Shown here: one piece after another, positions 6,323 to 34,691 of the stretch | Layout: each line of letters starts with the position of its first letter | How positions within the stretch are numbered: position 1 is the first letter of the stretch | Origin: Rickettsiales bacterium | Lineage (GTDB): Bacteria > Pseudomonadota > Alphaproteobacteria > Methylaequorales > Methylaequoraceae | NCBI GenBank assembly: GCA_028407765.1 | Contig: JAOOJU010000005.1 | Location: 1 to 37,770, forward strand | DNA: 37,770 nt | Direction: 5' to 3' | Notes under the pieces: generated by a model | What the model was told of the DNA's origin: nothing | Seen by the model: the letters and a program-made list of their open reading frames with translations, nothing else | The model's database searches: none | Made by a program: the position numbers and the translations under genes

Positions 6323-9300
6323 ATGTTAGAAAAAATATTAAAATCAGAAAAAGCATTATTAACAGTCTTGTTTTTTTTTATTTGTATGGGTATTTTTTCA
6401 TATAAATCGCTACCTCGAGAAGCAGACCCAGATATAAGTATTCCGGTAATCTATATTTCTTTATATCATCAAGGTATTTCACCTGAAGATTCTGAAAGGT
6501 TGCTTGTCAAGCCATTAGAAAAAGAATTAAAAAAAATTGAAGGAGTTAAAAAAATGTCCTCAACATCTTATCTGGGTGGAGGTAATGTAATTTTAGAATT
6601 TGACGCGGGATTTGAATCTAGAAAAGCATTGAGTGATGTAAGAGTTAAAGTAGATTTAGTTAAAAGTAAGCTACCCGATGAAACAAAAGAGCCTATAGTA
6701 TCAGAGGTTAATCTCTCCAGATTTCCTGTCCTAGCTATTGCTATATCTGGAAATATAGAAAAACGTGCATTAATAAAAATTGCCAAATTCCTTAAAAATA
6801 AGATTGAAAGTATTTCAGAAGTACTGGAAGTTAAGACTACAGGAGAGGATGAAAGAGAAATAGAAATTATAGTAGATCCTAAAATTGTGAAAAGTTATGG
6901 ACTAACTGCAAAAGAACTTTTGATGACACTCAAAAATAGTAATATTCTTGTACCAGCTGGTTCGATTAATAATGAAACAGGTAGTTTTAATATCAAAGTT
7001 CCGAGTTTATTTGAAAACTTTGAGGATATATTAAGTTTACCAATTAAGTCTGATAACGAATCATCAATTACCTTAGGTCAAATTTCAGAAATAAGAGATT
7101 CATTCAAGGATACAAAAGGTTTCGCAAGAAATAATGGAAAAGAGGCAATTATTCTCGAAGTATCTAAAAGAACAGGGGAAAATATAATAGAAACAATAAA
7201 GGAAATTAAAAAACAAGTTAATAATGCAAAAGAGTATTTTCCTGAAAATTTAAAAATTGATTTTTTTCAAGATGAATCAAAATCAATAAATTCCATGATA
7301 TCAGATTTAGAAAATAATGTAATCTTAGCAGTTTTACTGGTTCTTATCATTATAATTTTTTGGATGGGATTTAAGTCAGCCATATTGGTTAGCATCTCAA
7401 TTCCAGGATCATTTCTTATATCCATGGTTTTCCTGTCTTTTATGGGAGTTACTATAAATGTTGTTGTCTTATTTTCTTTAATTTTATCAGTAGGCATTTT
7501 AATTGACGGTGCAATAATTGTAGTTGAATATGCCAACAGAAGAGCCTCAGAGGGACTAAATAATAAGGAAGTGTTCATACTATCAGCTAGAAAAATGTTT
7601 ACCCCTGTTCTGGCTTCTACACTGACAACACTGGCGGCTTTTTTCCCTCTAATATTTTGGCCAGGAATAGCAGGAGAATTTATGTTTTATTTACCAGTAA
7701 CACTTTTAACAGTATTAACTTCATCTCTTATAATGGCTTTAATTTTTATTCCTGTTCTTGGAAAATTAATTGGAAGTGATTTAAATAAACAAAAGGAGGT
7801 AAATAATCTAAAATTGCTTGAGTCAGGTGACTTAGAAAAAATTGAAGGAATACAAAAATATTATTTAGATGTTTTAAAAGTTTGTTTGCACAATCCATTT
7901 AAAATTTTAATGACTACTTTTTTTTTAATTATTTTCGTGCAACTTGTATATTCCAAAATAGGAAAAGGATTTGAATTTTTTCCTCCAATAGAACCTGATT
8001 ATGCTGAAGTTGTTATACGTGCACAAGGAAATTTTTCAGCTATTGATAAGGATATAATAGTCAAAAAAGTAGAAAAAATTATTCTCCAAAATAAATTTAT
8101 TGAAAATAGTTACTCAAAAAGTGGCTTAATTAATTCTGACAATAGACAAAACTCAGATGATATCATTGGTTCAATAAACATTGAACTAATCAACTGGAAA
8201 AAAAGACCTAAATCAACTGTTATTACAAAAAAATTAGAACAACTATGTAGTTCAATTCCTGGAATTAAAGTTGAAATTATTGAAAAAAAAGATGGGCCAC
8301 CAAAAGATAGAGATATTGAAATTGAATTTTCAAATATTAATAAAAGTAATTTAGCAAAGGATGCAAAAGCAATTTTAATTTATCTAGACACACAGCAATG
8401 GGTAAAGAATCTTGATAATGGTTTTAATTCTCCTGGTATTGATTGGGAGCTGAAAGTAGATAGAGCTGAAGCTGACAAACAAGGAATTGAAATACTTACA
8501 ATTGGTAATGCTATTCAGATGGTTACTCATGGATTTAAAATAACTGAGTATATGCCAGAAGATAGTGATGAAGAAGTTGATATAGTTGTTAAATTTAAAG
8601 AGGGATATAGAACGTTAGATGAACTTGACAGAGTTGAAATAACAGGTAAAAATGGTCCAGTGCCTCTCAGTCTTTTTATTAAAAGAGAACCACAATCCAA
8701 GATAGGTAAAATAAAAAGAACAGATTCAGAAGCTTCTCATACTATAAGATTTGACGTTTCTGGTGATTATATTGCTAATAATAAAGTTAACGAAATATCA
8801 ATCTGGTTAAAAGAAAACAAACATATCCTCACCTCAAAGGTCAAATTTCGAGGTCAGGAAGAAGATCAAGAAGAGGCGAAGTCATTTTTAATTAAAGCGT
8901 TTTTTGTTTCCATTTTTTTAATTTTAATAATTCTAATAACTACTTTTGAAAGCTTCTATTATACCTTTGTAATTCTTACTTCAGTTATTATGTCTACAAT
9001 TGGTGTAATGATTGGTTTGTTGATAACAAATCAACCATTTGGAATAATTATGTCTGGAATTGGTGTTATTGCACTAGCAGGTATTGTTGTTAATAATAAT
9101 ATTGTTTTACTTGATACATATAAATCGCTTCGAAAAAAAACTTCAAATTATTACGATGCAATTTTAAGAACTGGGGCACAACGTCTACGTCCTGTAATGC
9201 TGACTACACTTACAACATTTTTTGGATTAATTCCAATGGCTGCAGGAATCAACATAAATTTTATTGAACAGAGTTTAAGTTTTGGAAGTCCAACTTCTCA

Positions 9301-13730: not shown

Positions 13731-16334
13731 AGCCATAATATGTTGCTTTAAGGAATCTGGCTTTCTAATTTCTAAACCTCCTCCTTGTGCCATGTCCTCT
13801 CTTCCTCCACCACCTTTGCCTCCAAGGAAAGTTGAAATTTCTCTTACTAGAATTAAAGCATTATATTTATTAACATGATCTTTCGTTACAGATATAACAA
13901 AAGTTGATTTATTTTTGAAATTTGTAACAAGAACAATTATCCCGGATTTCACTTGTTCTTTAATCAAATCACATTGTGATTTAAGTTCTTTAGGATTCAC
14001 TTCGCAAATTTGAATGTAGACTTTAATTCCTTTTACAATATTAGTATTTCTATTATCAAAAATTAATTGCTTTCCTTGTTTTTCTTTTTTTTGTAAATTT
14101 TGATTTTCTTTTAATATACTTTTCATCTTTGATAAAATATTTTCATCATTGGTATTTAAAATATTTTTTAACTCTGAAATTAATTGATTTCTAGTATTCG
14201 AATAATTTTCAACTTCTTCCCCAGTGATTGCCTCAATTCTTCTAACTCCAGACGAAATAGATGTTTCACTTAATATTTGAATTGAACCAATCTCTCCAGT
14301 AAAATTTACATGCGTACCTCCACAGAGCTCCGATGAAAAAATATCTTCATTATTCTCTCCCATACTAACTACCCTAACTTTTTCTGGATATTTTTCACCA
14401 AATAATCCAATAGCTCCATCATCAATTGCTTGTCGTGGTGACTTAATGACCGTTTCAACTTTTAAATTATTACGAATTGAGTCATTAACTAATCTTTGAA
14501 CATCCTTAATTTCAATATCTTTCATTGATCTATTATTCGTAAAATCAAATCTTAATCTATCCGGTGAGACTAAAGATCCTTTTTGTTTAATATGATCTCC
14601 TAAAATTCTTCTGAGAGATTCATGCAAAAGATGTGTTGCAGTATGATTGTTTCTGGCTTTATTTCTCAAAGATTTATTAATAACCAATTTATATTTAGTT
14701 CCTACTTGAAGTTCTCTTTCAATTTTATTTGAAAAATGAAGATAAACATTATCCTCCTTTTTTGTATCTTCTATTTCACAAATTTCTGAATTATCATCTA
14801 TCGAAAAAATATAACCTCTGTCACCAACTTGACCACCTGATTCTGCATAAAATGGAGTTTTATCAAAAATCAATATCGCACTTTTAAATTTTTGTGTCTT
14901 TGTTAGAAATTCTTCATTTTTAATAATTGCTATTAATTGTGCATCTTCAATATAAGATTGGTAACCACTGAAATCGGTTGACTTATATTTTTCTTTAATT
15001 CTAGAAAAGAATTCACTTTTAGTATTATCTCCACTTCCCTTCCAAGATTCTTTTGATAATTTTTTCTGGTCCACTATTAAAGAGTTAAGTTTATCTAAAT
15101 TCATACTTAGATTATTTTCTTTGATAATAGTTTGAGTCATATCAATCGGGAAGCCGTAAGTATCATAGAGCTTAAATGCTACTTCAGACGAAAAACTATT
15201 ACCTCTAGTTTTATTTATTTCTTTTTTTAATAACTTAATTCCTTCCTTTAAAGTTCCAGAAAATTTTTCTTCCTCAATTTTTAAAGTTTCCTCTATAAAT
15301 GCTTTTTGTGATTTAAGACCTATATAAATATGCTCATACTTATTCGAAATAACTTCAACAAGTTTATAAAGTAAAACTTTTTCATAACCAATCTGATTTA
15401 AATGTCTTGATGCTCTTCGAACAATTCTTCTAAGTACATATCCTCTACCTTCGTTTGATGGGATAATACCTTCACTAATTAAAAATATTATTGAACGAAT
15501 ATGATCAGCAATAACTCTAAATGAAATAAGGTTATCCTTATTAACCTTAAAGTCAGAGAAATATTCAATACTTTCTATGGTTTCCTTAAATATATCCGTC
15601 TCAAAATTATTAATTTTCTTATTCAAAACAGCCGTAATTCTTTCCAAACCCATTCCAGTATCTACGCATTTTTTTGGTAACGATGAAAGTTTTCCATTTT
15701 TTTTTTCATATTCCATAAATACTAAATTCCATATTTCTGTATATCTTTCACCATCTTGGTTCTTCGTCCCAGGAAGTCCTCCAGTAATACCTTCTCCATT
15801 ATCATAAAATATTTCACTACATGGTCCACATGGTCCAGATTCTCCCATAGACCAAAAATTATCATCTGAAGTAATTTTTATAATCTGAGAATTACCGAAA
15901 CCCGAAATTTTTTTCCAAATTTCGTAAGACTCCTCATCTTCTTTAAAAACAGTAATAATCAAGTCTTTAGTTTTAATCGAACAGTTTTTAGTTAAAAATT
16001 TCCAAGCAAACTCTATAGCATTTTCTTTAAAATATCCTCCAAATGAAAAGTTTCCTAACATCTCAAAAAATGTATGATGCCTAGGAGTAAAGCCTACATT
16101 ATCCAAATCATTATGTTTTCCTCCAGCCCTTATACACTTTTGAGAAGTAACAACATTTTCTTCCTCAGGATTTTCTATGCCTGTGAACCAATTTTTAAAT
16201 TGAACCATTCCTGCATTAGTAAAGAGTAAGCTAGGGTCGTTATCTGGAATTAGTGACGAGGATTCTATATGGACATGATTGTTTTTTTGGAAAAACTCTA
16301 CAAAACTTTTACGTATTTCGTCAGACTTAATCAT
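13722..16334 (-). CDS. alaS: Alanyl-tRNA synthetase
   Basis: 870 aa; SSSLIPDNDPSLLFTNAGMVQFK, HTATHLLHESL and CGGTHV motifs. Confidence 0.98.
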   Translation of the reverse strand: MIKSDEIRKSFVEFFQKNNHVHIESSSLIPDNDPSLLFTNAGMVQFKNWFTGIENPEEENVVTSQKCIRAGGKHNDLDNVGFTPRHHTFFEMLGNFSFGGYFKENAIEFAWKFLTKNCSIKTKDLIITVFKEDEESYEIWKKISGFGNSQIIKITSDDNFWSMGESGPCGPCSEIFYDNGEGITGGLPGTKNQDGERYTEIWNLVFMEYEKKNGKLSSLPKKCVDTGMGLERITAVLNKKINNFETDIFKETIESIEYFSDFKVNKDNLISFRVIADHIRSIIFLISEGIIPSNEGRGYVLRRIVRRASRHLNQIGYEKVLLYKLVEVISNKYEHIYIGLKSQKAFIEETLKIEEEKFSGTLKEGIKLLKKEINKTRGNSFSSEVAFKLYDTYGFPIDMTQTIIKENNLSMNLDKLNSLIVDQKKLSKESWKGSGDNTKSEFFSRIKEKYKSTDFSGYQSYIEDAQLIAIIKNEEFLTKTQKFKSAILIFDKTPFYAESGGQVGDRGYIFSIDDNSEICEIEDTKKEDNVYLHFSNKIERELQVGTKYKLVINKSLRNKARNNHTATHLLHESLRRILGDHIKQKGSLVSPDRLRFDFTNNRSMKDIEIKDVQRLVNDSIRNNLKVETVIKSPRQAIDDGAIGLFGEKYPEKVRVVSMGENNEDIFSSELCGGTHVNFTGEIGSIQILSETSISSGVRRIEAITGEEVENYSNTRNQLISELKNILNTNDENILSKMKSILKENQNLQKKEKQGKQLIFDNRNTNIVKGIKVYIQICEVNPKELKSQCDLIKEQVKSGIIVLVTNFKNKSTFVISVTKDHVNKYNALILVREISTFLGGKGGGGREDMAQGGGLEIRKPDSLKQHIMALI

Positions 16335-18574: not shown

Positions 18575-20257
18575 ATGTTAGATAATTTTGAAAAAAAAAA
18601 AAAAAAATTTGTTCCTTATCCAAAAGGTAGAAGTTTTGATAACAAGTCCCTTGAAGAAATCAATGAACTCATCTCAAGTCTTCCATTATCTAGAGATCTA
18701 TTAATTGAATATCTTCACTTAATTCAAGATAAATATAAGTGTATTAAAAAAAAGCATCTTGCCGCGCTATCCTCTATAATGAAAATACCTTTTGCAGAAA
18801 CCTTTGAGGTTGCAACCTTTTATGCACATTTTGATGTTATTGATGACAATGAGAAAGTTCCACCAGAAATTACAATTAGAGTGTGCGATAGTTTAACGTG
18901 TGAATTAAAAGGTGCTCAAAAACTAATAAATGAACTAAAAGATACATGTGACCCAGACAAAGTTAGAATACTTAGGGCTCCATGTATGGGACTATGTGAT
19001 AAAGCACCTGCATGTGAAGTAGGCCACAATCATCTCACAAATGTTAATGTTGAAGAGATTAAAAATGCAGTTTCAAAGAAATTAACTCATCCTAAAATTG
19101 TGAAAGGAATATTGTTTGATGAGTATATCAAAAACGGTGGTTATGATACCCTAAATGCCTGTTATGAAAATAAATTATCCTTTGAAAAAATTACAGAAAC
19201 ATTAAATGAATCAGGTTTAAAAGGCATGGGAGGAGCTGGTTTTCCAGCTGGTCAAAAATGGAAATTTGTTAAACTAGAAAAAGGTCCAAGGCTAATGACA
19301 ATCAATGGAGATGAGGGTGAACCTGGAACTTTTAAGGATAAACTTTATTTAGAAAACGACATGCATAGATTTTTTGAAGGAATGTTAATAGCAGCATGGG
19401 CAGTAGAGGCTGAGCAAGTTTATATTTATTTAAGAGATGAATATCCTGGAATTAGAATAAAAATGATAGAAGAATTACAAAAACTAAAAGATAACAAAAT
19501 AATAAAAGGTACTGAAGTTTTTATAAGGAGGGGAGCTGGAGCATATATTTGTGGAGAAGAATCGGCTATGATTGAGTCTATTGAAGGGAAAAGAGGACTT
19601 CCCAGACATAGACCACCCTTTGTCTCGAAAGTAGGTTTATTTGGTAAACCAACATTAAATCACAATATTGAAACGGTTTTCTGGGTTAGAGAAATACTTG
19701 AAAAAGGCTCTAAATGGTTTTCCAATCAAGGAATTCGTGGAAGAAAGGGACCCCATAGCTTTTCAGTATCAGGTAGAGTTAAAAATCCCGGAGTTAAACT
19801 CGCCCCAGCGGGTGTGACAATGAATGAACTAATAAAAGATTATTGCGGTGGAATGGAAAATGGTCATTCTTTTTATGGTTATTTACCAGGAGGAGCTTCC
19901 GGGGGAATACTACCTGCATCTATGGCAGACATACCCCTTGATTTTGGAACTCTGGATGAATACGGATGCTTTATAGGTTCAGGAGCAATTGTTGTTTTTT
20001 CTGATAAAGATGATATAACCAAAGTTGTGATAAACTTACTTAAATTTTTTGAAGATGAAAGTTGTGGTCAATGCACTCCATGCAGAGTTGGAACTGAAAA
20101 AGCGGTCAAGCTTTTAGAAAAAAGAGATTGGAATAAAGGTTTACTCAAAGAGCTTGTATCTATAATGGGAGATGCTTCAATTTGTGGACTAGGACAAGCA
20201 GCGGGAAATCCTATAACATGTGCGATCAATTATTTTGGAGAAGATTTAAATGGATGA
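18575..20257 (+). CDS. NAD-dependent formate dehydrogenase beta subunit, fused NuoE-NuoF type
   Basis: NuoE-like [2Fe-2S] Cys pattern (VCDSLTCEL...CMGLCDKAPA), then NuoF-like GMGGAGFPAGQKWKF, CGEESAMIESIEGKRG, ESCGQCTPCRVG; followed by FdhA. Confidence 0.93.
   Translation: MLDNFEKKKKKFVPYPKGRSFDNKSLEEINELISSLPLSRDLLIEYLHLIQDKYKCIKKKHLAALSSIMKIPFAETFEVATFYAHFDVIDDNEKVPPEITIRVCDSLTCELKGAQKLINELKDTCDPDKVRILRAPCMGLCDKAPACEVGHNHLTNVNVEEIKNAVSKKLTHPKIVKGILFDEYIKNGGYDTLNACYENKLSFEKITETLNESGLKGMGGAGFPAGQKWKFVKLEKGPRLMTINGDEGEPGTFKDKLYLENDMHRFFEGMLIAAWAVEAEQVYIYLRDEYPGIRIKMIEELQKLKDNKIIKGTEVFIRRGAGAYICGEESAMIESIEGKRGLPRHRPPFVSKVGLFGKPTLNHNIETVFWVREILEKGSKWFSNQGIRGRKGPHSFSVSGRVKNPGVKLAPAGVTMNELIKDYCGGMENGHSFYGYLPGGASGGILPASMADIPLDFGTLDEYGCFIGSGAIVVFSDKDDITKVVINLLKFFEDESCGQCTPCRVGTEKAVKLLEKRDWNKGLLKELVSIMGDASICGLGQAAGNPITCAINYFGEDLNG
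18591..18607 (+). repeat. A17 homopolymer inside the fdh beta-subunit coding region (Glu6-Lys tract)
   Basis: Read directly after atgttagataattttg; encodes the end of Glu6 plus five Lys codons. Confidence 0.95.
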
Positions 20258-23012
20258 ATCAGTTAAATTTTTCTTGGATGGTAAAGTAGTAACTGCACAA
20301 AAAAATGAGTCAATATGGCAGGTTGCAAAAAAACACGGAAATATTTTACCTCATTTATGTTACTCAGATAAAACTGGATACAGAGCTGATGGTAATTGTA
20401 GAGCATGTATGGTTAGTATTGAGGGTGAAAGAGTCTTAGCAGCATCTTGCATAAGAAAACCATCAGAGGGCATGAAAGTCTCTACCCTAGACGAAAGATC
20501 AAAAAAATCAAGAGAAATGGTTTTAGAACTACTTGTTACCGACCAACCAAAAAAAAATAATTCTCATGATCCGAATTCACATTTTTGGAACATGGCAAAT
20601 AAAGTTAGTGTTGAAAAAAGTCGTTTTGATAAAAAGTGTGACTCTGAAGTACCTATCTCTGATGTTTCAAATAAAGCTATGTCAGTTAATCTTGATGCAT
20701 GTATTCACTGTAACTTATGTGTTAGAGCTTGCAGAGAAGTTCAAGTAAATGATGTAATTGGGATGGGTATGAGAGGTCACAGCTCAAAGGTTGTGTTTGA
20801 TTTTGATGATCCTATGGGAGATTCAACCTGTGTTAGTTGTGGAGAGTGTGTGCAAGCCTGTCCTACAGGTGCTTTAATGGAATCAAGTTTATTAGACGAA
20901 AACGGCAAACATAAAGGAGAACCTGACAGAGAAGTAGACTCATTATGTCCCTATTGTGGTGTAGGATGCCAATTAACGTTTAAAATAAAAGACGAAAAAA
21001 TTATTTCTGCAGTTGGGAGGGACGGTCCAGCTAACAATAATAGACTTTGTGTGAAAGGTAGGTTTGGTTTTGATTATATACATAATCCAGAGAGAATAAC
21101 TAAGCCTCTAATTAGAAAAGAAGGGATTAAAAAAGATCCAACTGAAAGAGTGAATCCCCTAGATCCATCTTCACATTTTCGTGAAGCTTCTTGGGAAGAA
21201 GCTCTGGATTTAGCTGCAAAAAAGTTGATTAAAATAAGAGATAATGTCCCAGGAAAGTCTCTTGCAGGCTTTGGTTGTGCAAAAGGATCAAACGAAGAAG
21301 CTTATTTATTTCAAAAATTAGTCAGAACTGGTTTTAATAACAATAATGTAGACCATTGTACTAGAATGTGTCATGCATCCTCCGTGGCTGCTTTAATGGA
21401 AGCTATCGGAACTGGAGCTGTAACAGCACCAGTTTCTGAAGTTAAAAATTCAGATGTTGCAATTATAATCGGAGCTAGACCTACGCAAAATCATCCTGTT
21501 GCTGCAACTTTTATAAAAAATGCTGTTAAGAAAGGCCTTAAGCTTATAGTTATGGATCCAAGAGAACAGGATCTATCAACTATTGCAACAAAAAACTTGC
21601 AATTTAAGCCAGGTACTGATGTTGCACTGCTTAATGCTATGCTTAATGTAATAATAGAAGAGAGTCTAGTTGATAGACAATACATTGAAAAACATACAGA
21701 AGGATATAAAGAAATTGTTAATCATGTGAAAGACTTCACCCCAGAGGAAATGGAAAATATATGTGGTATTTCGGCAAATGAGATAAGAGAAACAGCCAGA
21801 ATTTTTGCTGAAGCTAAATCTGCTATGATTTTTTGGGGGATGGGTATTTCTCAGCATATTCATGGTACTGATAATTCAAGGTGTCTCATTTCCATGGCTT
21901 TACTAACAGGAAATGTTGGAAGACCAGGAACTGGATTACACCCACTCAGGGGCCAAAATAATGTTCAAGGTGCCTCTGATGTTGGACTTATACCGATGGT
22001 TTTTCCAGATTATCTTCCGATTTCTGATTCAAATAATGTTAAATTCTTCGAACAATACTGGGAAACAAAACTTGACCCCAATCCAGGCTTAACTGTTGTT
22101 GAAATTGTTGAAGCAATGTACGAAAAGAAAATACAAGGCCTATATGTTATGGGAGAAAATCCTGCGATGTCTGATCCGAATGCCAGTCATGCTCGTGAAG
22201 CTTTGGCTAGACTTGATACATTAGTAGTTCAAGATATTTTTTTAACTGAAACCGCTTATTTGGCAGATATTGTTCTACCCGCCTCTGCATTTCCTGAAAA
22301 AACTGGAACATTTACTAATACCGATAGAAGAGTTCAATTAGCAAAAAAAGCTGTTAATCCTCCAGGAGATTCCAAACAGGACTGGTGGATTATTCAAGAA
22401 CTTGCAAAAAGATTTAATCTTAAATGGAACTACAATGGACCCGATGAAATTTATGATGAGTTAAGAAATTGTATGGATTCTATAAAAAATATAAGTTGGG
22501 AAAGGTTAGTTAATGAAGGAGCAGTTACTTATCCTTGTGATGCGGAGGATAAACCAGGAAATGAGGTAATTTTTGGTGAAGGCTTTCCGACGAAAAATAA
22601 AAAAGGTAAATTGGTTCCTGCAAAAATAATTTCTCCAGATGAAGTTCCAGATAAAGATTATCCATTTGTTCTTACAACTGGAAGACTACTTGAACATTGG
22701 CATACTGGCTCAATGACTATGAGAGCAACAATATTAAACTCCATTGAACCTGAACCTTATGTTCATGTTTCGAACAAGGATATGAAGAAAAATAACCTTT
22801 CTCAAAATGAAACCGTACAACTTTCAACCAGGAGAGGTAAGGTTGACGTTAAGGTGAGGATAGATCGAATGATACCAGAAGGAATGGTTTTCATGCCTTT
22901 TTGTTTTGAAAAAGCTCCAGTAAATCTACTAACTAATCAAGCATTAGATCCGGATGGAAAAATACCAGAACTAAAATATTGTGCAGCAAAAATAGACAAA
23001 GTTATTGTTTAA
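20250..23012 (+). CDS. NAD-dependent formate dehydrogenase alpha subunit (Mo/W-bis-PGD)
   Basis: N-terminal NuoG-like ferredoxin domain, CIHCNLCVRAC and CVSCGECVQAC clusters, CPYCGVGC, DHCTRMCHASSVAALMEAIGTGAVTAP with Cys as likely metal ligand. Confidence 0.95.
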   Translation: MDESVKFFLDGKVVTAQKNESIWQVAKKHGNILPHLCYSDKTGYRADGNCRACMVSIEGERVLAASCIRKPSEGMKVSTLDERSKKSREMVLELLVTDQPKKNNSHDPNSHFWNMANKVSVEKSRFDKKCDSEVPISDVSNKAMSVNLDACIHCNLCVRACREVQVNDVIGMGMRGHSSKVVFDFDDPMGDSTCVSCGECVQACPTGALMESSLLDENGKHKGEPDREVDSLCPYCGVGCQLTFKIKDEKIISAVGRDGPANNNRLCVKGRFGFDYIHNPERITKPLIRKEGIKKDPTERVNPLDPSSHFREASWEEALDLAAKKLIKIRDNVPGKSLAGFGCAKGSNEEAYLFQKLVRTGFNNNNVDHCTRMCHASSVAALMEAIGTGAVTAPVSEVKNSDVAIIIGARPTQNHPVAATFIKNAVKKGLKLIVMDPREQDLSTIATKNLQFKPGTDVALLNAMLNVIIEESLVDRQYIEKHTEGYKEIVNHVKDFTPEEMENICGISANEIRETARIFAEAKSAMIFWGMGISQHIHGTDNSRCLISMALLTGNVGRPGTGLHPLRGQNNVQGASDVGLIPMVFPDYLPISDSNNVKFFEQYWETKLDPNPGLTVVEIVEAMYEKKIQGLYVMGENPAMSDPNASHAREALARLDTLVVQDIFLTETAYLADIVLPASAFPEKTGTFTNTDRRVQLAKKAVNPPGDSKQDWWIIQELAKRFNLKWNYNGPDEIYDELRNCMDSIKNISWERLVNEGAVTYPCDAEDKPGNEVIFGEGFPTKNKKGKLVPAKIISPDEVPDKDYPFVLTTGRLLEHWHTGSMTMRATILNSIEPEPYVHVSNKDMKKNNLSQNETVQLSTRRGKVDVKVRIDRMIPEGMVFMPFCFEKAPVNLLTNQALDPDGKIPELKYCAAKIDKVIV

Positions 23013-23093: not shown

Positions 23094-24875
23094 CTAATCT
23101 TCAGAGTTCTCTAGCTCTCTTTTAGTCATATGATGCTTACTTGCAACAGGCCCGATTAGTAAGTTAGCTATAAAAGCAATTGCAAGCAGACCAGCCATTG
23201 CGAACATAGTAGTGTTATATAAGGTAGAAGAAGGGTCTATTGTACCCTCTGGAACAATTTGCATCAAATTTGTTATTGTCACTGTCTTCTGATTTATAAG
23301 CTCGGGCAAATTTTCCATTGAGGCACCATAACTCTCCAAAAACTTTTCTGGATCAGCCTTACTTGCCAATTCATTTATAGATTCTTCAACAGAACTTTGC
23401 CTTAACTTGGTTATTGCTAAAGGTCCTAAAACTCCCGCTGTAGCCCAAGCTGTTAATAATCTTCCATGAATTCCACCAACATATCTAGTCCCAAAAATAT
23501 CCGCAAGATATGCAGGTATAGTTGCAAATCCTCCTCCATACATTGTAAAAATAACCATTGATGCTGCATAGAACATTATTAAGTAAGTCACAGAAGGATT
23601 TATACTCATTGCTCTTGCACTGTATGGAATTGATAGATAAAGCAATATACCCAATGAAAAAAATAAAAAATAAGTTGTTTTTCGTCCAATTAAATCAGAC
23701 ATAGAAGCCCAAAAAATTCTTCCAATCATATTGAAAACACTTATCATTAAAACATAAGTCCCAGCAAAACTAGCTGTCACAATCATTGGTAATGTGGAGC
23801 CAAAAATTTCAATCATCATTGTTTTAGCAACTCCTATGACTCCAATTCCTGCTGTAACGTTAAAGCATAATACTATCCATAAAAAATAAAATTGTGGAGT
23901 TTTAAGTGCTTGATCTATATGAACATGGTTCTTTGTTATCAATCTTGTTTTAGCCGAGTCTTTTGGAGGAGTCCAACCTTCAGGAACCCAACCTTCCGGT
24001 GGAACTCTATATGAAAATGCAGCTACAGTCATAATGATAAAATATATAACTCCTAAAAATAGAAATGTCTGGGCAGCTCCACTTGAACCTGTTCCTACAA
24101 TATAAACTCCAGGTTCACCCGGAACTATCATTCTTGAAACTTCATTTGCAGCAACTACTACTACCTCAATCATTGATCCCGAAATTTCAGCAAATCTTCT
24201 TCCGCCTTCAGTAATTAAGTTAAGTGAGTCTACTGAACCTAAAAATTCCGGTACTTTATAAAACTTTTCTAGTAATTTATCTATAGTAAACTTAGCAATC
24301 ATAGCTCCTCCTCCAAAACCCATAATTGCCATCCCAGTAGCCATCCCTCTTCTGTCAGGGAACCATCTGATTAAAGTAGAAACTGGAGAGACATAACCTA
24401 AACCTAATCCGATACCACCTATTACACCGTAACCAAGATATAATAGATATAAACCTAATTGGAGTGTTATTTCATCAGAACTTACCATTGGTAATGAAAT
24501 ATTAATCTGGAAACCTAATTCTTGAAGGTATATTCCCAATGACCCAATCACAAAACCTCCACCCCAACAACATGCTGCAACAAATCCAACCATTCTAGGA
24601 CCTACTTTTTCCAGCCATTTACCTGCGTAAGCAGCAGCTAGACCCAAAGAAACTATTGCCACAGAAAAAATCCAAACAACTTGACTCAAACTCCAATCAT
24701 CACCAGATGACGCTGCAACTCCTAAAACTTTTACGAGTGCAGGGTTAAACATACTCCATGCATAAACTGAACCGATACATAGATGTATGGCAATTGATGC
24801 AGGGGGAACCAACCAACGATTAAATCCAGGTTTAGCAATAATATTTTTCTTTTTTAATCTATCTGCAAAGTTCAT
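23094..24875 (-). CDS. OFA-type (oxalate/formate antiporter-like) MFS transporter
   Basis: Polytopic; WSMFNPALVKVLG, IGGIGLGLGYVSPVSTLIRWFPDRRGMATGMAIMGFGGGAMI; located in the FDH gene cluster. Confidence 0.85.
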   Translation of the reverse strand: MNFADRLKKKNIIAKPGFNRWLVPPASIAIHLCIGSVYAWSMFNPALVKVLGVAASSGDDWSLSQVVWIFSVAIVSLGLAAAYAGKWLEKVGPRMVGFVAACCWGGGFVIGSLGIYLQELGFQINISLPMVSSDEITLQLGLYLLYLGYGVIGGIGLGLGYVSPVSTLIRWFPDRRGMATGMAIMGFGGGAMIAKFTIDKLLEKFYKVPEFLGSVDSLNLITEGGRRFAEISGSMIEVVVVAANEVSRMIVPGEPGVYIVGTGSSGAAQTFLFLGVIYFIIMTVAAFSYRVPPEGWVPEGWTPPKDSAKTRLITKNHVHIDQALKTPQFYFLWIVLCFNVTAGIGVIGVAKTMMIEIFGSTLPMIVTASFAGTYVLMISVFNMIGRIFWASMSDLIGRKTTYFLFFSLGILLYLSIPYSARAMSINPSVTYLIMFYAASMVIFTMYGGGFATIPAYLADIFGTRYVGGIHGRLLTAWATAGVLGPLAITKLRQSSVEESINELASKADPEKFLESYGASMENLPELINQKTVTITNLMQIVPEGTIDPSSTLYNTTMFAMAGLLAIAFIANLLIGPVASKHHMTKRELENSED

Positions 24876-25510
24876 ATTTTGTTTTCCCCCAGTGTTTTAA
24901 TTGAATGGTAAATTTTTTTAGCTTCAAACAAGTCATCTTCATTATTTATATTAAAAAATGGATCATAATCAATAAATGGAAAATTAACTACCTTCATTTT
25001 AATTTTTTTTGTAAAATCATCAATTTTTCTTACTTTCTTATCAATTGAATGTTTAAGCGGCTCCAGTAAATCTAAGCTCCATAAAGCAAAAACAGGGTGA
25101 ATTCTATTATTACTTTGAGCAACTATTACTTTTTCCTCTTGTAAGTTTAAAAAAAATTTTTCCACAATATTTAATGGAAAAAAAGGAGAATCTACAGGAA
25201 CTGTCATCAACCACTTATGTTGCATTTTATTATCTTTTAACCATGTCAAACCTGTGAGTAAACCGATTAATGGACCAAGATGTCCTTCGATACAATCATT
25301 TAAAATTTTTATTTCTTGAAATTCTTCTTTATCACTTATCCTATTCGAATTAATTGCAATTGAATCAACTTGAGGAGATAGCCTCTCAATTGATATTTGA
25401 AGCAATGATTTATTATCTATTTTTTTGAAAGTTTTATCATTAAAATTCATTCTACGTGATTTTCCACCCGCAAGAATTAATCCAGCTACTAATTTTTTAT
25501 TATTTTTCAA
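24872..25510 (-). CDS. mobA: Molybdenum cofactor guanylyltransferase MobA
   Basis: LAGLILAGGKSRRM-type motif (VAGLILAGGKSRRMN), MTVPVDSPFFP. Probable TTG start at 25510 overlapping fdhD end (ORF track start is 25561). Confidence 0.88.
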   Translation of the reverse strand: MKNNKKLVAGLILAGGKSRRMNFNDKTFKKIDNKSLLQISIERLSPQVDSIAINSNRISDKEEFQEIKILNDCIEGHLGPLIGLLTGLTWLKDNKMQHKWLMTVPVDSPFFPLNIVEKFFLNLQEEKVIVAQSNNRIHPVFALWSLDLLEPLKHSIDKKVRKIDDFTKKIKMKVVNFPFIDYDPFFNINNEDDLFEAKKIYHSIKTLGENKI

Positions 25511-26297
25511 TTCTTTGTTCTCCAGATAAAGCAATAAATTTTTTTCCTTTTGCTCTTCCAATTAAAGTAAGGTTAGCTTGCTTGGCTAATTCAACACCCC
25601 AGGCAGTAAAACCAGATCTAGAAATAATTATTGGTATTTTCATTTGAACAGATTTAATTACCATCTCACTTGTCAATCTACCTGTTGTGTAAAAAATTTT
25701 ATCGTTTGAAATTATATTGTGAAGAAACATATATCCAGCTATTTTATCAATTGCATTATGTCTTCCAACGTCTTCCATATAAATTATTGGTATATCTTTT
25801 TTACACAATACACATCCATGAATTGCTCCTGCTTTGAGATATAAGCTTGGTGTTAAATTAATCTTCTTTGATAATCCATATATCCATTCTATTTTTAATT
25901 TATGGGTGTCATCGAATTTGATATTATTGAAATTTTCCATAACATCGCCAAATACTGTTCCTTGGGCACAACCTGAAGTCAATGTTTTCTTTTTTAATTT
26001 ATTTTCAAAATTTGTCTTTCTTTCTGTTCTAACAACTACAGTGCTGGTATCATCATCAAAATCAACACCACTAATTATATCTTCCTTAACTAGCATATTT
26101 TGATTGAGTAAATATCCTACAGCTAAATACTCAGGGTAATCATTAATCGTCATCATTGTAACAATTTCTTGGCTGTTTAAATATAGTGTGAGTGGCCTTT
26201 CTTCAATAACATCAATTTCTTTTCTTTCTAGATTTTCATCATAACCTAAAATTTTACGAGTTAATGTCAGATTTCCTATGTTAGGTTTAATTTTCAT
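25500..26297 (-). CDS. fdhD: Formate dehydrogenase accessory sulfurtransferase FdhD
   Basis: ERPLTLYLN, TSGCAQGTVFGD, MEDVGRHNAIDKIAGY, TTGRLTSEMV. Confidence 0.94.
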   Translation of the reverse strand: MKIKPNIGNLTLTRKILGYDENLERKEIDVIEERPLTLYLNSQEIVTMMTINDYPEYLAVGYLLNQNMLVKEDIISGVDFDDDTSTVVVRTERKTNFENKLKKKTLTSGCAQGTVFGDVMENFNNIKFDDTHKLKIEWIYGLSKKINLTPSLYLKAGAIHGCVLCKKDIPIIYMEDVGRHNAIDKIAGYMFLHNIISNDKIFYTTGRLTSEMVIKSVQMKIPIIISRSGFTAWGVELAKQANLTLIGRAKGKKFIALSGEQRIEK

Positions 26298-26365: not shown

Positions 26366-27347
26366 ATGCTTGATTCATTTGGAAGAAAAATAGATTATAT
26401 GAGATTCTCAATCACAGACAGATGTGACTTGAGATGCAGATATTGCATGCCAAAAAATATGGTCTTTTCCGATAAAAGAGACCTACTAGATTTAAAAGAT
26501 TTAAAAAATTTAAGTCAATCTTTAGTGGAAATTGGTATTAAAAAAATAAGAATTACTGGAGGTGAACCCTTGGTAAGAAAAGATCTAATTCCCTTTATAG
26601 AGTATTTAAATTCTTTCTTAAAAAAAAATATCTTGAAAGAAGTTACAATTACAACGAATGGAACTCTTCTAGAAAAATATGCAAAAAAACTTCGTGAAAA
26701 CGGAATAAAAAGGATTAATGTATCAGTTGATAGCATTATACCTGAAAAATATGAGTTTATAACAAACGGTGGAAAACTTGAGAAAGTAATCTCTGGAATA
26801 ATTAAAGCAAGAGATTTAGGGATAAATATTAAGATTAATACCGTTTTAATAAAAAACTTCAACATTGATGAAATAATTTCTATATCAAATTGGTGTTCAA
26901 AACTATCTATGAATCTATCATTTATAGAAATAATGCCGATTGGTGATATGGAATATTCGAGAAAAGATCAGTATTTTCCTATTACTTCTGTTAAAGAAAT
27001 AATAAGAAATAATTTAGGTCTTAAACCTATAGATTTAAAAACAAACGGTCCCTCTAATTATTTTGAAACCGAGAAATTGAAGTCTATAATTGGCTTTATC
27101 AGCCCTATCAGTAATCATTTTTGTGAATCTTGCAATAGAATTAGAATAACGAGTAATGGTATTTTATATAGTTGTCTAGGTCATGAAGATTCCTTAGACC
27201 TAAAGCCATTTTTAAAAAAAGAATCACCCGAAGCACTGACTGAATCCATCAAAAAAAGCTATATATAACAAACCTGAAAAACATTTCTTTGATATTAACA
27301 ATTCTAAACCTGCAGTAGAAAGATATATGAATTTAACTGGAGGTTAA
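26366..27347 (+). CDS. moaA: GTP 3',8-cyclase MoaA, frameshifted near the C-terminus (frame 0 stops at 27268; +1 frame from 27258 gives AIYNKPEKHFFDINNSKPAVERYMNLTGG)
   Basis: CDLRCRYCMP radical-SAM motif, FCESCNRIRITSNGILYSC second cluster; C-terminal LTGG found in the +1 frame after an A7 run. Confidence 0.92.
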
Positions 27348-28123
27348 TGATGAAAAAATCAGAAAAAAAAATTGCTTTCGTGGCTTCTGAAAGTGATGAG
27401 GCTCAAAAATCACTATTAATATTAAAGAAAAAATATGACTTTGTCACACCAAATTCAGCAGACGTAATTATTGCTCTAGGTGGCGATGGTACAGTTTTAG
27501 AAACGCTACATACTTTTCTCAAAAAAAGACTTCCGATTTATGGCATGAATCGTGGTCATATTGGTTTTTTAATGAATGAATATTCTGAAGAAAATTTAAT
27601 CGATAGAATTAATTTAGCCAATGCTACAAAATTATTTCCCCTAAAAATTAAAAGTTATCTAATAAATGGAGAAGTTGAAGAGAGTATAGCATTTAATGAC
27701 GTATCACTTATTCGTGATACCAGACAAATAGCAAAAATTTCCATTGAAGTAAACGGCATTAAAAAAATTGATCAATTACTCTGTGACGGTTGTCTGATAT
27801 CAACTCCTGCGGGAAGTTCTGCCTATAATCTTTCATTAAGAGGTCCAGTTGTCCCTGTTGATGCACAACTTCTAGCTCTGACACCTATTAGTCCCTACAG
27901 ACCGAGGCGTTGGAGAGGCGCATTACTTCCAAATACTGTTAAAATAACTTTAACTGGAATAGAAGTTAATAAGAGACCACTCAGGGCAGAGGCAGATTTT
28001 TTTGAAGTTAAAGCAATTAAAAAGCTTGAAATTGAATTAGATAAAAGTCAATACATAAATCTACTTTTTGATAAGGGGCACGACCTTGAAGAGAGAATCA
28101 TTAATGAACAATTCATATACTAA
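27347..28123 (+). CDS. nadK: NAD kinase
   Basis: ALGGDGTVLETLH, NRGHIGFLMN, STPAGSSAYNLSLRGPVV. Confidence 0.95.
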   Translation: MMKKSEKKIAFVASESDEAQKSLLILKKKYDFVTPNSADVIIALGGDGTVLETLHTFLKKRLPIYGMNRGHIGFLMNEYSEENLIDRINLANATKLFPLKIKSYLINGEVEESIAFNDVSLIRDTRQIAKISIEVNGIKKIDQLLCDGCLISTPAGSSAYNLSLRGPVVPVDAQLLALTPISPYRPRRWRGALLPNTVKITLTGIEVNKRPLRAEADFFEVKAIKKLEIELDKSQYINLLFDKGHDLEERIINEQFIY

Positions 28124-29273: not shown

Positions 29274-30302
29274 ATGCTTACAGAAAAATTTGATTTCAAA
29301 GTACCTGATAGTTTAATAGCACTTAAACCCTCTAGTCCAAGAGATTCTTCCAAACTAGTAGAAGTTTCAAAAAATTTTACCATACTCAGTTTTACTAATA
29401 TCTTAGATATCTTAAAAAAAGGTGATTGTTTAGTTCTAAATGATACCAAAGTTATACCAGCAAGATTAAAGGGGGTGTGTAATTCAAAAGAAGTTGAAAT
29501 CACACTAAATAAATTAATTATAATATCCTCAAAAATTATTTGGAGTGTATTTGTAAAACCATTAAAAAAAGTTAAAGATAATAGTACTATCAAATTTGGG
29601 GAGGGTTTCTTTGGAAAAATAAAAAAATCCGATAATCTCTTATTAATAGAGTTTAATTATTCACAAAAGAAGTTTGCCAGTCTAATCCATCGTTATGGCA
29701 CGCTCGCCTTACCACCTTATATTTCAAAAAAAAGATCTATTAAAAAAATTGATTACAAAAACTATCAAACTATATTTGCTACTAAAGAAGGTGCAATAGC
29801 TGCACCGACTGCAAGTCTACATTTTACAGAAAAGTTATTAAAAAAAATTATAAATAAAGGTATTAAAATTGTAATGGTTACTCTCCATATCAATGGAGGT
29901 ACATTTCTACCTATCAGAAAAAAGAATATTGATGAGCATGAAATGCATTTTGAATTTGGTGAGATTAGTAAAGATGCAGCTAAAATTATTAATGAGACCA
30001 GAAAAAAAGGATATAGATGTATAGCAGTTGGTACTACTGTTTTAAGGCTTCTAGAAACGGCTAAAAATAATACTGGTCAAATTTTTGAGTATCGTGGTGA
30101 AACAGACATCTTCATTAAACCGGGATGGGAAATTAATTCTATTGATGGCCTAATCACAAATTTTCATACCCCAAAATCAACACTTTTTATTTTAATCTGT
30201 GCTATGATTGGAACAAATAAAGCTAAAAAACTTTATAAATTTGCAATCCAAAATAATCTTAGATTTTTTTCCTATGGAGATGCATGTTTATTATGGAAAT
30301 AA
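29274..30302 (+). CDS. queA: tRNA preQ1(34) S-adenosylmethionine ribosyltransferase-isomerase
   Basis: LVLNDTKVIPARLKG, AAPTASLHFT, LHINGGTFLPI, NFHTPKSTL. Confidence 0.97.
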   Translation: MLTEKFDFKVPDSLIALKPSSPRDSSKLVEVSKNFTILSFTNILDILKKGDCLVLNDTKVIPARLKGVCNSKEVEITLNKLIIISSKIIWSVFVKPLKKVKDNSTIKFGEGFFGKIKKSDNLLLIEFNYSQKKFASLIHRYGTLALPPYISKKRSIKKIDYKNYQTIFATKEGAIAAPTASLHFTEKLLKKIINKGIKIVMVTLHINGGTFLPIRKKNIDEHEMHFEFGEISKDAAKIINETRKKGYRCIAVGTTVLRLLETAKNNTGQIFEYRGETDIFIKPGWEINSIDGLITNFHTPKSTLFILICAMIGTNKAKKLYKFAIQNNLRFFSYGDACLLWK

Positions 30303-30305
30303 ATA

Positions 30306-31427
30306 TTGAAAAATAATTTCTTTAAATTAATCAATCAAGATGGTAGAGCCAGAACAGGTTTGCTTAAAACCAAACATGGAGAAGTAGAAACACCTGTTTT
30401 CATGCCGGTTGGGACATTGGGAACCGTAAAAGGAGTTTTTCCCAGAGATTTATTAGATATTGGTGTTCAAATTATTCTTGGAAATACTTACCACTTAATG
30501 TTAAGGCCAGGTGAAAAACTCATAAGTGAAATGGGTGGACTACAAAAATTCATGAATTGGAACAAACCTATATTAACGGACTCAGGAGGGTTTCAAATTT
30601 GGTCTTTATCGAAGTTAAGAACAATTGATCGAGATGGAGTTACTTTTAATTCTCACATTGACGGAAAAAAATATAGATTAACCCCAGAAACTTCAATCAA
30701 AATTCAAGAAAAACTAAATGCAAATATAACAATGGTACTAGATGAATGTACTACTCATCCTTCAACTCATACGGAATCCAGTGGATCTTTGAATCTAAGC
30801 TTAAATTGGGCAAAAAAATGTAAAAAAATATATAAAGAAAGAAATGGTTTTGGTCTGTTTTCTATAGTTCAGGGTGGAATGTATAAAGATCTTAGAAAAA
30901 AAAGTTGCGAAAATCTAATTGATATGGACTTTGACGGATATGCTATTGGTGGTTTATCTGTAGGAGAAAAACATTCTGAAATGATAGATATAGTTAAATT
31001 CACAACAAACTACTTACCTATTGAAAAGCCACGTTATTTGATGGGAGTAGGGAGACCTATAGATATTCTTAAATCTGTAGAAAAAGGTATAGATATGTTT
31101 GACTGTGTATTACCAACAAGATTTGGAAGAAATGGTAGAGCATTTACCAAAGAAGGAGAATTGAATCTTAAAAACTCAAAATTTTCTTATGATGACAGAC
31201 CTCTTGATAATAATTTAAAATGTTTCGTATCAAAAGAATTTTCAAGAGCTTACATTCATCACTTAACAAAAACTAATGAAATTTTGTCCGCAATGATTTT
31301 AAGTTTACATAATATTGCATTTTATCAAAAAATGATGTCAGATATTAGAAATTCGATTAAAAATAAAAATTATAAAAAATTAATGCAATCATATTTAGAA
31401 ACTCATAGGTTTTATGAAAAAACTTAA
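30306..31427 (+). CDS. tgt: tRNA-guanine(34) transglycosylase, degenerate zinc site (TTG start)
   Basis: TPVFMPVGTLGTVKG, LTDSGGFQIWSL, GVGRPIDIL, FDCVLPTRFGRNGRAF; zinc region LKCFVSKEFSRAYIHH. Confidence 0.95.
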   Translation: MKNNFFKLINQDGRARTGLLKTKHGEVETPVFMPVGTLGTVKGVFPRDLLDIGVQIILGNTYHLMLRPGEKLISEMGGLQKFMNWNKPILTDSGGFQIWSLSKLRTIDRDGVTFNSHIDGKKYRLTPETSIKIQEKLNANITMVLDECTTHPSTHTESSGSLNLSLNWAKKCKKIYKERNGFGLFSIVQGGMYKDLRKKSCENLIDMDFDGYAIGGLSVGEKHSEMIDIVKFTTNYLPIEKPRYLMGVGRPIDILKSVEKGIDMFDCVLPTRFGRNGRAFTKEGELNLKNSKFSYDDRPLDNNLKCFVSKEFSRAYIHHLTKTNEILSAMILSLHNIAFYQKMMSDIRNSIKNKNYKKLMQSYLETHRFYEKT

Positions 31428-31860
31428 CCAACTTGGAAAAAAATCAAAAATATTGAATGACCCTAAGAAAGTAGTCTTAGACACAGTAGAAAATCCTAAT
31501 AAAAAACTTAAATATGTTATCAGATTATCCTCACCAGAATTTACAAGTATCTGTCCTTTAACCGGACAACCAGATTTTGGAAATATTATTATAGACTATA
31601 TTCCAAAAGAATTGATAGTTGAAAGTAAGTCTTTTAAACTTTTTCTACATTCTTTCAGAAATCATGGAGCCTTTCATGAAGAATGTACTATTATGATTGC
31701 AACAAAAGTTATTGAGGCATTAAATCCTCTTTGGTTAAGAATTGGGGGCTTCTGGAATCCCAGAGGTGGTATACCCATAGATATATTTTATCAAACTGCA
31801 AAAAAACCTGCTGATATCTGGTTGGAAGATTATGAAATAAGAAATTATAAGGGAAGGTAG
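31414..31860 (+). CDS. queF: NADPH-dependent 7-cyano-7-deazaguanine reductase
   Basis: TSICPLTGQPDFG, SFRNHGAFHEECT. Confidence 0.96.
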   Translation: MKKLNQLGKKSKILNDPKKVVLDTVENPNKKLKYVIRLSSPEFTSICPLTGQPDFGNIIIDYIPKELIVESKSFKLFLHSFRNHGAFHEECTIMIATKVIEALNPLWLRIGGFWNPRGGIPIDIFYQTAKKPADIWLEDYEIRNYKGR

Positions 31861-31863
31861 AAA

Positions 31864-32220
31864 TCATTCACCTTTATAAACACAACCACCAATCCTCGGT
31901 CGATTAATTTCAATTTGTTCTAGGTTTTTAACTTTACTTTTTAAATTTTCCCAAAACCATTTGGCTATATTTTCGCTCGTCGGATTTTCTAGACCACTAA
32001 TATCATTTAATAAATTATGGTCAATTTTTTTTAAAAGAGGTTTAACGTAAATATCAATTTTTTCAAGATCCATTACCCATCCCTTTTTCTTTTTCTGTTT
32101 GCCATTAAGGAATATTGTGATCTCATAGCTATGTCCATGCACTTTACTGTATTTATGATTTTTAGGGTGATTAAGCATAAAATGTGCAGTATCAAAATAA
32201 TATTTTTTATAGACAATCAT
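31864..32220 (-). CDS. queD: 6-carboxy-5,6,7,8-tetrahydropterin synthase family protein with substituted catalytic residues
   Basis: FDTAHF, VHGHSYEI zinc His, IDHNLLND, LENPTSENIAKWFWE, GGCVYKGE; lies in the que cluster. Confidence 0.9.
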   Translation of the reverse strand: MIVYKKYYFDTAHFMLNHPKNHKYSKVHGHSYEITIFLNGKQKKKKGWVMDLEKIDIYVKPLLKKIDHNLLNDISGLENPTSENIAKWFWENLKSKVKNLEQIEINRPRIGGCVYKGE

Positions 32221-32222
32221 AT

Positions 32223-32855
32223 TTAACTAATATTTAGTGATTTATGTAATTGAAAACTTGGAAACCAGGGTTTATGTGACTTACAATAGTTGATAGTATT
32301 CCATATATTAATTTGTTTTCTACTATTATCCATTGGTTGTAAAAAAAAATATTTAAAATCTAGTTTTTTTAAAATATTAAGATCAAAGTTTTGTTGCGGA
32401 TATACAACTTTTAATTCATCTCCATTTAGAACCTCCCATTTAGATTTTTGCTTGGGGCTAACGCAAACCCAGTCAAAGTGAATGTTAAATCTTATTGTTC
32501 CATTTGTTTCCAATGAAACGAAATATCCTCTATGCTGAAGAGATTTCACAAGATTTTCATTAACTTGAAGCATTGGTTCACCACCTGTTAAAACAACAAA
32601 TTTTTCGTTAGTAAAAATTTTTTGACGCCAAATCTTATCAATTTTGTCTAATAAATTTTCAAGCGAGTAGGTTCCACCATTTTGACCACTTATTCCCAAA
32701 AAATCAGTATCACAAAACTGACATTGAGCATTTTCTCTATCTTTAAAGAGACCATTCCATAAATTACATCCTGTAAATCTAACAAAAACTGCTCTTTTTC
32801 CTGAAAAAAAACCCTCACCTTGTATAGAATTAAAAATTTCTTTTATAAAAAACAT
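32223..32855 (-). CDS. queE: 7-carboxy-7-deazaguanine synthase (radical SAM, C-x14-C-x2-C type)
   Basis: EIFNSIQGEGFFSGKRAVFVRFTGCNLWNGLFKDRENAQCQFCDTDF; VLTGGEPMLQ. Confidence 0.95.
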   Translation of the reverse strand: MFFIKEIFNSIQGEGFFSGKRAVFVRFTGCNLWNGLFKDRENAQCQFCDTDFLGISGQNGGTYSLENLLDKIDKIWRQKIFTNEKFVVLTGGEPMLQVNENLVKSLQHRGYFVSLETNGTIRFNIHFDWVCVSPKQKSKWEVLNGDELKVVYPQQNFDLNILKKLDFKYFFLQPMDNSRKQINIWNTINYCKSHKPWFPSFQLHKSLNIS

Positions 32856-32857
32856 AA

Positions 32858-33535
32858 TTAATATCTATAACTTATCTTATCTTCAACCGAAGCATTTTCA
32901 AAACCTTTCTTTCTTAGAAGGCATGAGTCACATTTTCCACAACTCATTTTATTCATTGGATTATAGCAACTTGAAGTATTTTTAAAATCTACATTATTTT
33001 TTACACCCTCATGTATAATTTTTTCTTTGGTCATGTTAATCAAAGGAGTATGAATTTTAAATTTCTTGCCTAGTATACTTTTTTTTGTTGCAATATTTGC
33101 TAGCTTTTCAAATGCCCTAATAAAATTTGGTCTACAATCTGGATAACCTGAATAATCAATAGCATTTACTCCTAAAAAAATATCATCACATTTTAAAAAT
33201 TCTGCATAACCCAAAGCATATGATAGGAAAATGGTATTTCTAGCTGGAACATACGTTACAGGTATTTTATTGGGTATATTTTCAACATTTCTATTTTCTG
33301 GAACAGCTATATCATCTGTTAAAGAGGAACCACCAAAAAAATCTATTTTGAATATTTTGTGACCACTAGCTTTTTGAAGTTTTACTTGTCTCTTTGCATA
33401 AATTAATTCTCTGCTATGCCTTTGACCGTAATTAAATGAAATACAATATACATCAAATCTTTTTATAGCCATGGATAAAACAACAGAAGAATCAAGTCCA
33501 CCACTTAAAAGTACTACAGATTTTTTTTTTTTCAT
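32858..33535 (-). CDS. queC: 7-cyano-7-deazaguanine synthase
   Basis: VVLLSGGLDSSV, NYGQRHSREL, DYSGYPDCRP, SCYNP...CGKCDSCLLR. Confidence 0.97.
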   Translation of the reverse strand: MKKKKSVVLLSGGLDSSVVLSMAIKRFDVYCISFNYGQRHSRELIYAKRQVKLQKASGHKIFKIDFFGGSSLTDDIAVPENRNVENIPNKIPVTYVPARNTIFLSYALGYAEFLKCDDIFLGVNAIDYSGYPDCRPNFIRAFEKLANIATKKSILGKKFKIHTPLINMTKEKIIHEGVKNNVDFKNTSSCYNPMNKMSCGKCDSCLLRKKGFENASVEDKISYRY

Positions 33536-33572
33536 TAATTACTCTTTAGACATAATAAAGTAATACTTTTAT

Positions 33573-34691
33573 ATGAAAATAAATAAAAAAAAAAAATTAA
33601 TTATAGATAAATCTTTAGAGCTAGGTTTTAGCATAATTAAGTTTAGTCGTCCTAAAATTGAGGATCATATAAAAAGTAATTATAAAAAATTTCTAAATAA
33701 AAATTATCATGGTCAAATGAAGTGGATGGAGAGACATTTTAAAATAAAAAATAATCCTGAAAAACTATGGAAAGAAGTTAAAAGTATAATTATTCTTGGT
33801 AGTAACTACGCGCCCGAAAAAAACCCTTTAATTGATAATTCAAAGAAAAAAAACGCTAATATAAGTGTTTATGCAAGGAACAAGGATTATCATACTGTTA
33901 TTAAAAAAAAACTTAGAGTTTTAAAATCATGGTTATATGATGCACTACAAATAGATGCTAAATTATTTGTGGATACAGCACCAATATATGAAAAACCACT
34001 TGCTCAAGCATCCGGGATTGGTTGGCAAGGTAAACATACTAATATAGTTTCCAAGAAATACGGTTCATGGTTATTCTTAAGTGAAATCTTTTTACCAATT
34101 GAAATTGAAGAAGATTCTAAAGAAATCGATAATTGCGGTAGCTGCTCTAAATGTATAAATATTTGTCCAACTAATGCCTTCATTGACGATTATAAAATTG
34201 ATGCAAGAAAATGTATTTCTTATCTAACTATTGAGCATAAAGGTCCTTTCCCAATGTCACTAAGAAAAGAAATAGGAAACAAAGTTTATGGTTGCGATGA
34301 TTGCCTAGCTATTTGTCCATGGAATAAATTTTCCAATAAAACTGATCAAATAGACTTTATATCAAGAGAAAATCTGTTGAACCCCGAATTATCATATTTT
34401 TTAAAATTTGATAAAAAAATGTTTGATAAGGAGTTTTATGAATCACCAATTAAAAGAATAGGTTGGGTCAGCTTCATTAGAAATATTATAATTGCTTCAG
34501 GTAATAGTAAGGCTAGAGAATTAATTAAAGATTTAAAACCATTACTCCTCAATTCCAACCCTATAGTAAGAGGCAGTACAATTTGGGCATATGGTCAATT
34601 AGCAAACAAAAAAGAAAAGGATGAAATTAAAAAGAAATTCATAAATTATGAAAAAAATAGTTATGTATTATATGAATGGTCATTTTTTTAG
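33573..34691 (+). CDS. queG: Epoxyqueuosine reductase
   Basis: CGSCSKCINICPTNAF...CISYLTIEHKGPFP...CDDCLAICPWNKF. Confidence 0.96.
   Translation: MKINKKKKLIIDKSLELGFSIIKFSRPKIEDHIKSNYKKFLNKNYHGQMKWMERHFKIKNNPEKLWKEVKSIIILGSNYAPEKNPLIDNSKKKNANISVYARNKDYHTVIKKKLRVLKSWLYDALQIDAKLFVDTAPIYEKPLAQASGIGWQGKHTNIVSKKYGSWLFLSEIFLPIEIEEDSKEIDNCGSCSKCINICPTNAFIDDYKIDARKCISYLTIEHKGPFPMSLRKEIGNKVYGCDDCLAICPWNKFSNKTDQIDFISRENLLNPELSYFLKFDKKMFDKEFYESPIKRIGWVSFIRNIIIASGNSKARELIKDLKPLLLNSNPIVRGSTIWAYGQLANKKEKDEIKKKFINYEKNSYVLYEWSFF

Follow-up and report, generated by a model that had tools for sequence, protein, structure and literature searches.

The C-terminal double glycine of MoaA/MOCS1A is needed for GTP 3',8-cyclase activity. 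In Neurospora, the double glycine of the MoaA counterpart NIT-7A has been called functionally relevant (PMC7232280); beyond that remark, a full statement of the requirement was not found in the open literature. Transcriptional slippage has been documented for AT-rich endosymbionts (PMC3017870). With E. coli RNA polymerase, slippage was undetected at runs of fewer than 7 T or fewer than 8 A, and an A7 run gave mRNA insertions at 0.39% (PMC6260861); in E. coli and Buchnera, slippage at A/T runs mostly inserts bases, and runs of G or C are not slippage-prone (PMC5574713). Single-cell assemblies produced with one established workflow carried a mean of 3.0 indels per 100 kb relative to known genomes (PMC8443664). 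Here, we report the analysis of a moaA gene with a frame break at an A7 run, located in a 37,770-nucleotide window (the whole stretch of DNA that was analyzed) of an AT-rich alphaproteobacterial draft genome.

Reading frame of moaA and its neighbors

The following features of the window surround or make up the break:

18575..23012, forward strand: formate dehydrogenase, a NuoE/NuoF-like fusion plus the molybdenum catalytic subunit, intact, 75-87% identical to relatives
24872..25561, reverse strand: mobA, intact; homology of relatives begins near 25498-25516
25500..26297, reverse strand: fdhD, intact, 80% identical to a relative
26366..27268, forward strand: moaA as assembled, frame 0, 300 aa, Gly-Gly tail cut off; TIGR02666 match
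27251..27257, forward strand: A7 run bearing the +1 frame break
27258..27347, forward strand: conserved out-of-frame MoaA C-terminal tail, AIYNKPEKHFFDINNSKPAVERYMNLTGG and stop
27347..28123, forward strand: nadK (NAD kinase; NF003406), overlapping the TAA of the tail frame

Frame 0, read from the ATG at 26366, ends in ESIKKSYI with a TAA at 27266-27268, and the Gly-Gly is encoded in the shifted frame only, not at the C terminus of the product as assembled. When one A was removed from the A7 run, the moaA frame ran on as AIYNKPEKHFFDINNSKPAVERYMNLTGG to a stop at 27345-27347, and this TAA overlaps the nadK ATG at 27347. The moaA body (to 27259) and the tail (27252-27344) were joined by tblastn with two relatives as queries. 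An A7 frameshift that cuts off the Gly-Gly tail of MoaA had been described in an earlier note on this DNA, and both the frames and tblastn confirm it for the sequence as assembled.

The product scored 328 bits against TIGR02666 (moaA equivalog, NCBIfam; cut-off, 284), which makes it a match to the MoaA model, and also exceeded the cut-off of PF06463. It resembles TIGR02666 proteins in its radical SAM body, its Mob_synth_C domain, an encoded Gly-Gly C terminus, and the position of nadK directly 3' of the gene, as in relatives; unlike them, the assembled frame stops ahead of the 29-residue Gly-Gly tail. One copy of moaA was found in the genome, the further matches being radical SAM relatives of 25-30% identity. 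The gene is an ordinary moaA. The broken A7 is no unusual tract, since four other A runs of at least 7 bases are kept in frame inside moaA (26540-26546, an A9 at 26620-26628, 26683-26689, and 27214-27220).

Within the window, formate dehydrogenase, fdhD, and mobA are all intact, with identities to relatives of 55-87%, and moaC, moaE, and two moeA genes lie elsewhere in the genome with open frames; nothing suggests an ongoing loss of molybdenum cofactor synthesis. A major facilitator superfamily (MFS) transporter of the oxalate/formate or lactate type (23094-24875), 87% identical to relatives and scoring below curated cut-offs in its family models, adjoins the formate dehydrogenase. In nadK, the region homologous to a relative begins with the second ATG, at 27350, and the tail-frame Gly-Gly codons, GGAGGT, may double as a putative nadK ribosome binding site (27339-27352).

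Conservation of the MoaA tail among relatives

The genome (1.13 Mb, 101 contigs, 67% complete) belongs to a family of 32 genomes including itself, of which 26 have moaA; the other 25, none of the same genus, formed the comparison set, and an order-level search covered the same 32 genomes as the family-level search. In 25/25 family relatives (52-63% identity), moaA runs without an internal stop to its last residue, and in all 25 the protein ends in Gly-Gly, in frame. The break is common to none of the 25.

The tail was compared without gaps to four close relatives of equal length (L089, L090, L091, and L093) and showed 62-73% identity, while the body showed 59-64% identity to the same four. Tail differences at third codon positions numbered 18, 15, 15, and 13 of 27-29, with just 2-4 at second positions. 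This predominance of third-position changes argues for selection of the tail in its own frame and against decay, and by this codon pattern the tail was under selection until very recently, or is so still. The earlier note had taken the conserved 29 residues as a sign of a recent or corrected event; the comparison of orthologous moaA genes that it proposed yielded reading through to Gly-Gly in 25/25 relatives and no unrelated C terminus. No exact match to the tail DNA was found in viral contigs.

No sign of an endosymbiont was found, and the nearest named relative, AG-337-E20, is recorded as an uncultured alphaproteobacterium, which we take, by its name, to be a marine single-cell genome.

Frame breaks across the genome

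Open reading frames of two relatives were scanned against about 878 kb of the genome (L114-L133, L154-L173, L234-L253, and the window), and 645 kb of coding DNA under strong matches to the two relatives was assessed. Nine frame breaks were found (1.4 per 100 kb, counting frame-breaking changes only); in the window, the scan found none besides moaA. The sites were as follows:

C14:35616-35632 (L157 about 15616-15632): trpS, A10, +1 A; sole copy in the genome
C14: truB, T6, +1
C14: Alph_Pro_TM membrane protein, broken twice, at T9 and at A10 (weaker evidence)
C14: glnD, A8, +1
C14: phoR-like kinase, A10, +1
Positions of these five further C14 sites (truB, Alph_Pro_TM twice, glnD, phoR-like): L127 about 14143; L157 about 13320, 13690, and 18325; L158 about 8610
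C17, L130 about 6817-6848: nuoG, A9, +1
C22, L169 about 1220-1233: ribD, G9, +1
Window 27251-27257: moaA, A7, +1

Each of the nine is one additional base within a homopolymer (two-sided chance of a single sign, 0.004), with no deletion among them. Six lie on C14, a 52-kb contig that makes up 7% of the DNA assessed (probability of such clustering by chance, 8e-6). The broken share climbs with run length, from 0.05% at 6 bases to 2.7% at 10 bases, and 1 of the 1264 seven-base runs here is broken. Breakage that rises with run length is the usual signature of homopolymer error. The single trpS copy in this genome is broken, and trpS was present in 14/14 control genomes. Candidate breaks numbered 4 in 248 kb in one of the two relatives, per base similar to the genome studied here, and at most 4 in 634 kb in the other, AG-337-E20.

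Origin of the extra A

We infer that the extra A at 27251-27257 is very probably an error of the draft genome that would have been introduced during amplification, sequencing, or assembly, and the organism's real moaA probably reads straight to the Gly-Gly tail. Given +1 breaks at eight other sites, including the sole trpS, the break in moaA is most probably technical. Tryptophanyl-tRNA synthetase is indispensable to the cell and trpS is universal; these breaks must therefore, at least in part, be error or efficiently rescued, and a living cell would not carry the broken set of trpS, nuoG, ribD, truB, glnD, and the phoR-like gene unrepaired. As in homopolymer indel errors of draft and single-cell genomes, one base is changed in an A/T or G run, the same type of break recurs elsewhere, longer runs are more often broken, sites cluster by contig, and indispensable genes are affected; unlike in such errors, all nine changes are insertions. 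The rate of 1.4 per 100 kb has the same order of magnitude as the 3.0 indels per 100 kb published for single-cell assemblies, and the clustering of breaks on C14 fits uneven coverage. From contig sizes (down to about 2 kb) and a contig order consistent with names ranked by length and then sorted alphabetically, we infer a short-read and possibly single-cell assembly. Against a technical error stand the uniform +1 sign (9/9), the rarity of errors at runs of only seven bases (1/1264), and the location of the cluster on C14, while the window contig has a single break; the window contig may, for that reason, be better covered.

The earlier note had offered three options for the break. Of these, sequencing or assembly error has by far the strongest support, from the homopolymer +1 class and the sole trpS; a real lesion ranks below it as the main alternative, and rescue by slippage fares poorly. 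Such a lesion would have arisen very recently, by +1 slippage during replication in the cell or strain that was sequenced; it would leave a truncated MoaA lacking Gly-Gly and abolish molybdenum cofactor and formate dehydrogenase activity. This is how the assembled DNA reads, the A7 run is a plausible slippage site, and a recent event would equally leave the tail undecayed, but we consider it unlikely: the same type of break affects the sole trpS and nuoG, genes that are hardly dispensable, so real null mutations do not account for the class as a whole, and formate dehydrogenase, fdhD, mobA, moaC, moaE, and moeA are all intact. Rescue of a real frameshift by slippage of RNA polymerase along the A run, the mechanism known from Buchnera and Blochmannia, is highly improbable. 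The AT-rich genome (29% GC) with its many A/T runs, the single indel in such a run, and the otherwise intact gene are all like the rescued genes of these bacteria, and Blochmannia has likewise been reported with frameshifts in otherwise intact core genes (PMC3017870). However, the runs here go down to 6-7 bases and include one G run, and an A7 is too short by the thresholds measured in another organism, E. coli (PMC6260861). The rescue of moaA would also require a deletion from the mRNA, the direction disfavored in E. coli and Buchnera, and ribD is broken at a G9, although G/C runs do not slip (PMC5574713). Moreover, the in-frame A9 and three in-frame A7 runs of moaA would slip equally or more, and the broken gene occurs in 0/25 family relatives, so that by run length and direction (thresholds from E. 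coli and Buchnera) and by retention of the break in relatives, moaA departs from slippage-rescued genes.

Recoding, by programmed +1 ribosomal frameshifting or by a tail made separately as a peptide acting in trans, deserves hardly any credence. The tail frame is open from 27240, but moaA is split in 0/25 relatives, which argues that nothing here is programmed or conserved, and the frame of the tail has a single ATG, GTG, or TTG start, an ATG at 27327, which would give just MNLTGG; a separately translated tail was rejected for want of a useful start codon. A more general alternative, that all nine +1 frameshifts, with moaA and the sole trpS among them, are real and tolerated because the RNA polymerase or the ribosome is unusually prone to deletions, would likewise be very surprising.

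The moaA break is thus most probably no real biological feature. For annotation, the formate dehydrogenase and the molybdenum cofactor pathway should be recorded as present and moaA flagged as a probable sequence error. In AT-rich drafts generally, gene loss or recoding should be claimed for a broken single-copy gene only after comparison with how often homopolymers are broken across the genome.

Downstream in the window, 29274-34691 holds an apparent queuosine cluster (queA, tgt, queF, queD, queE, queC, and a queG-like gene; named by eye from the translations).
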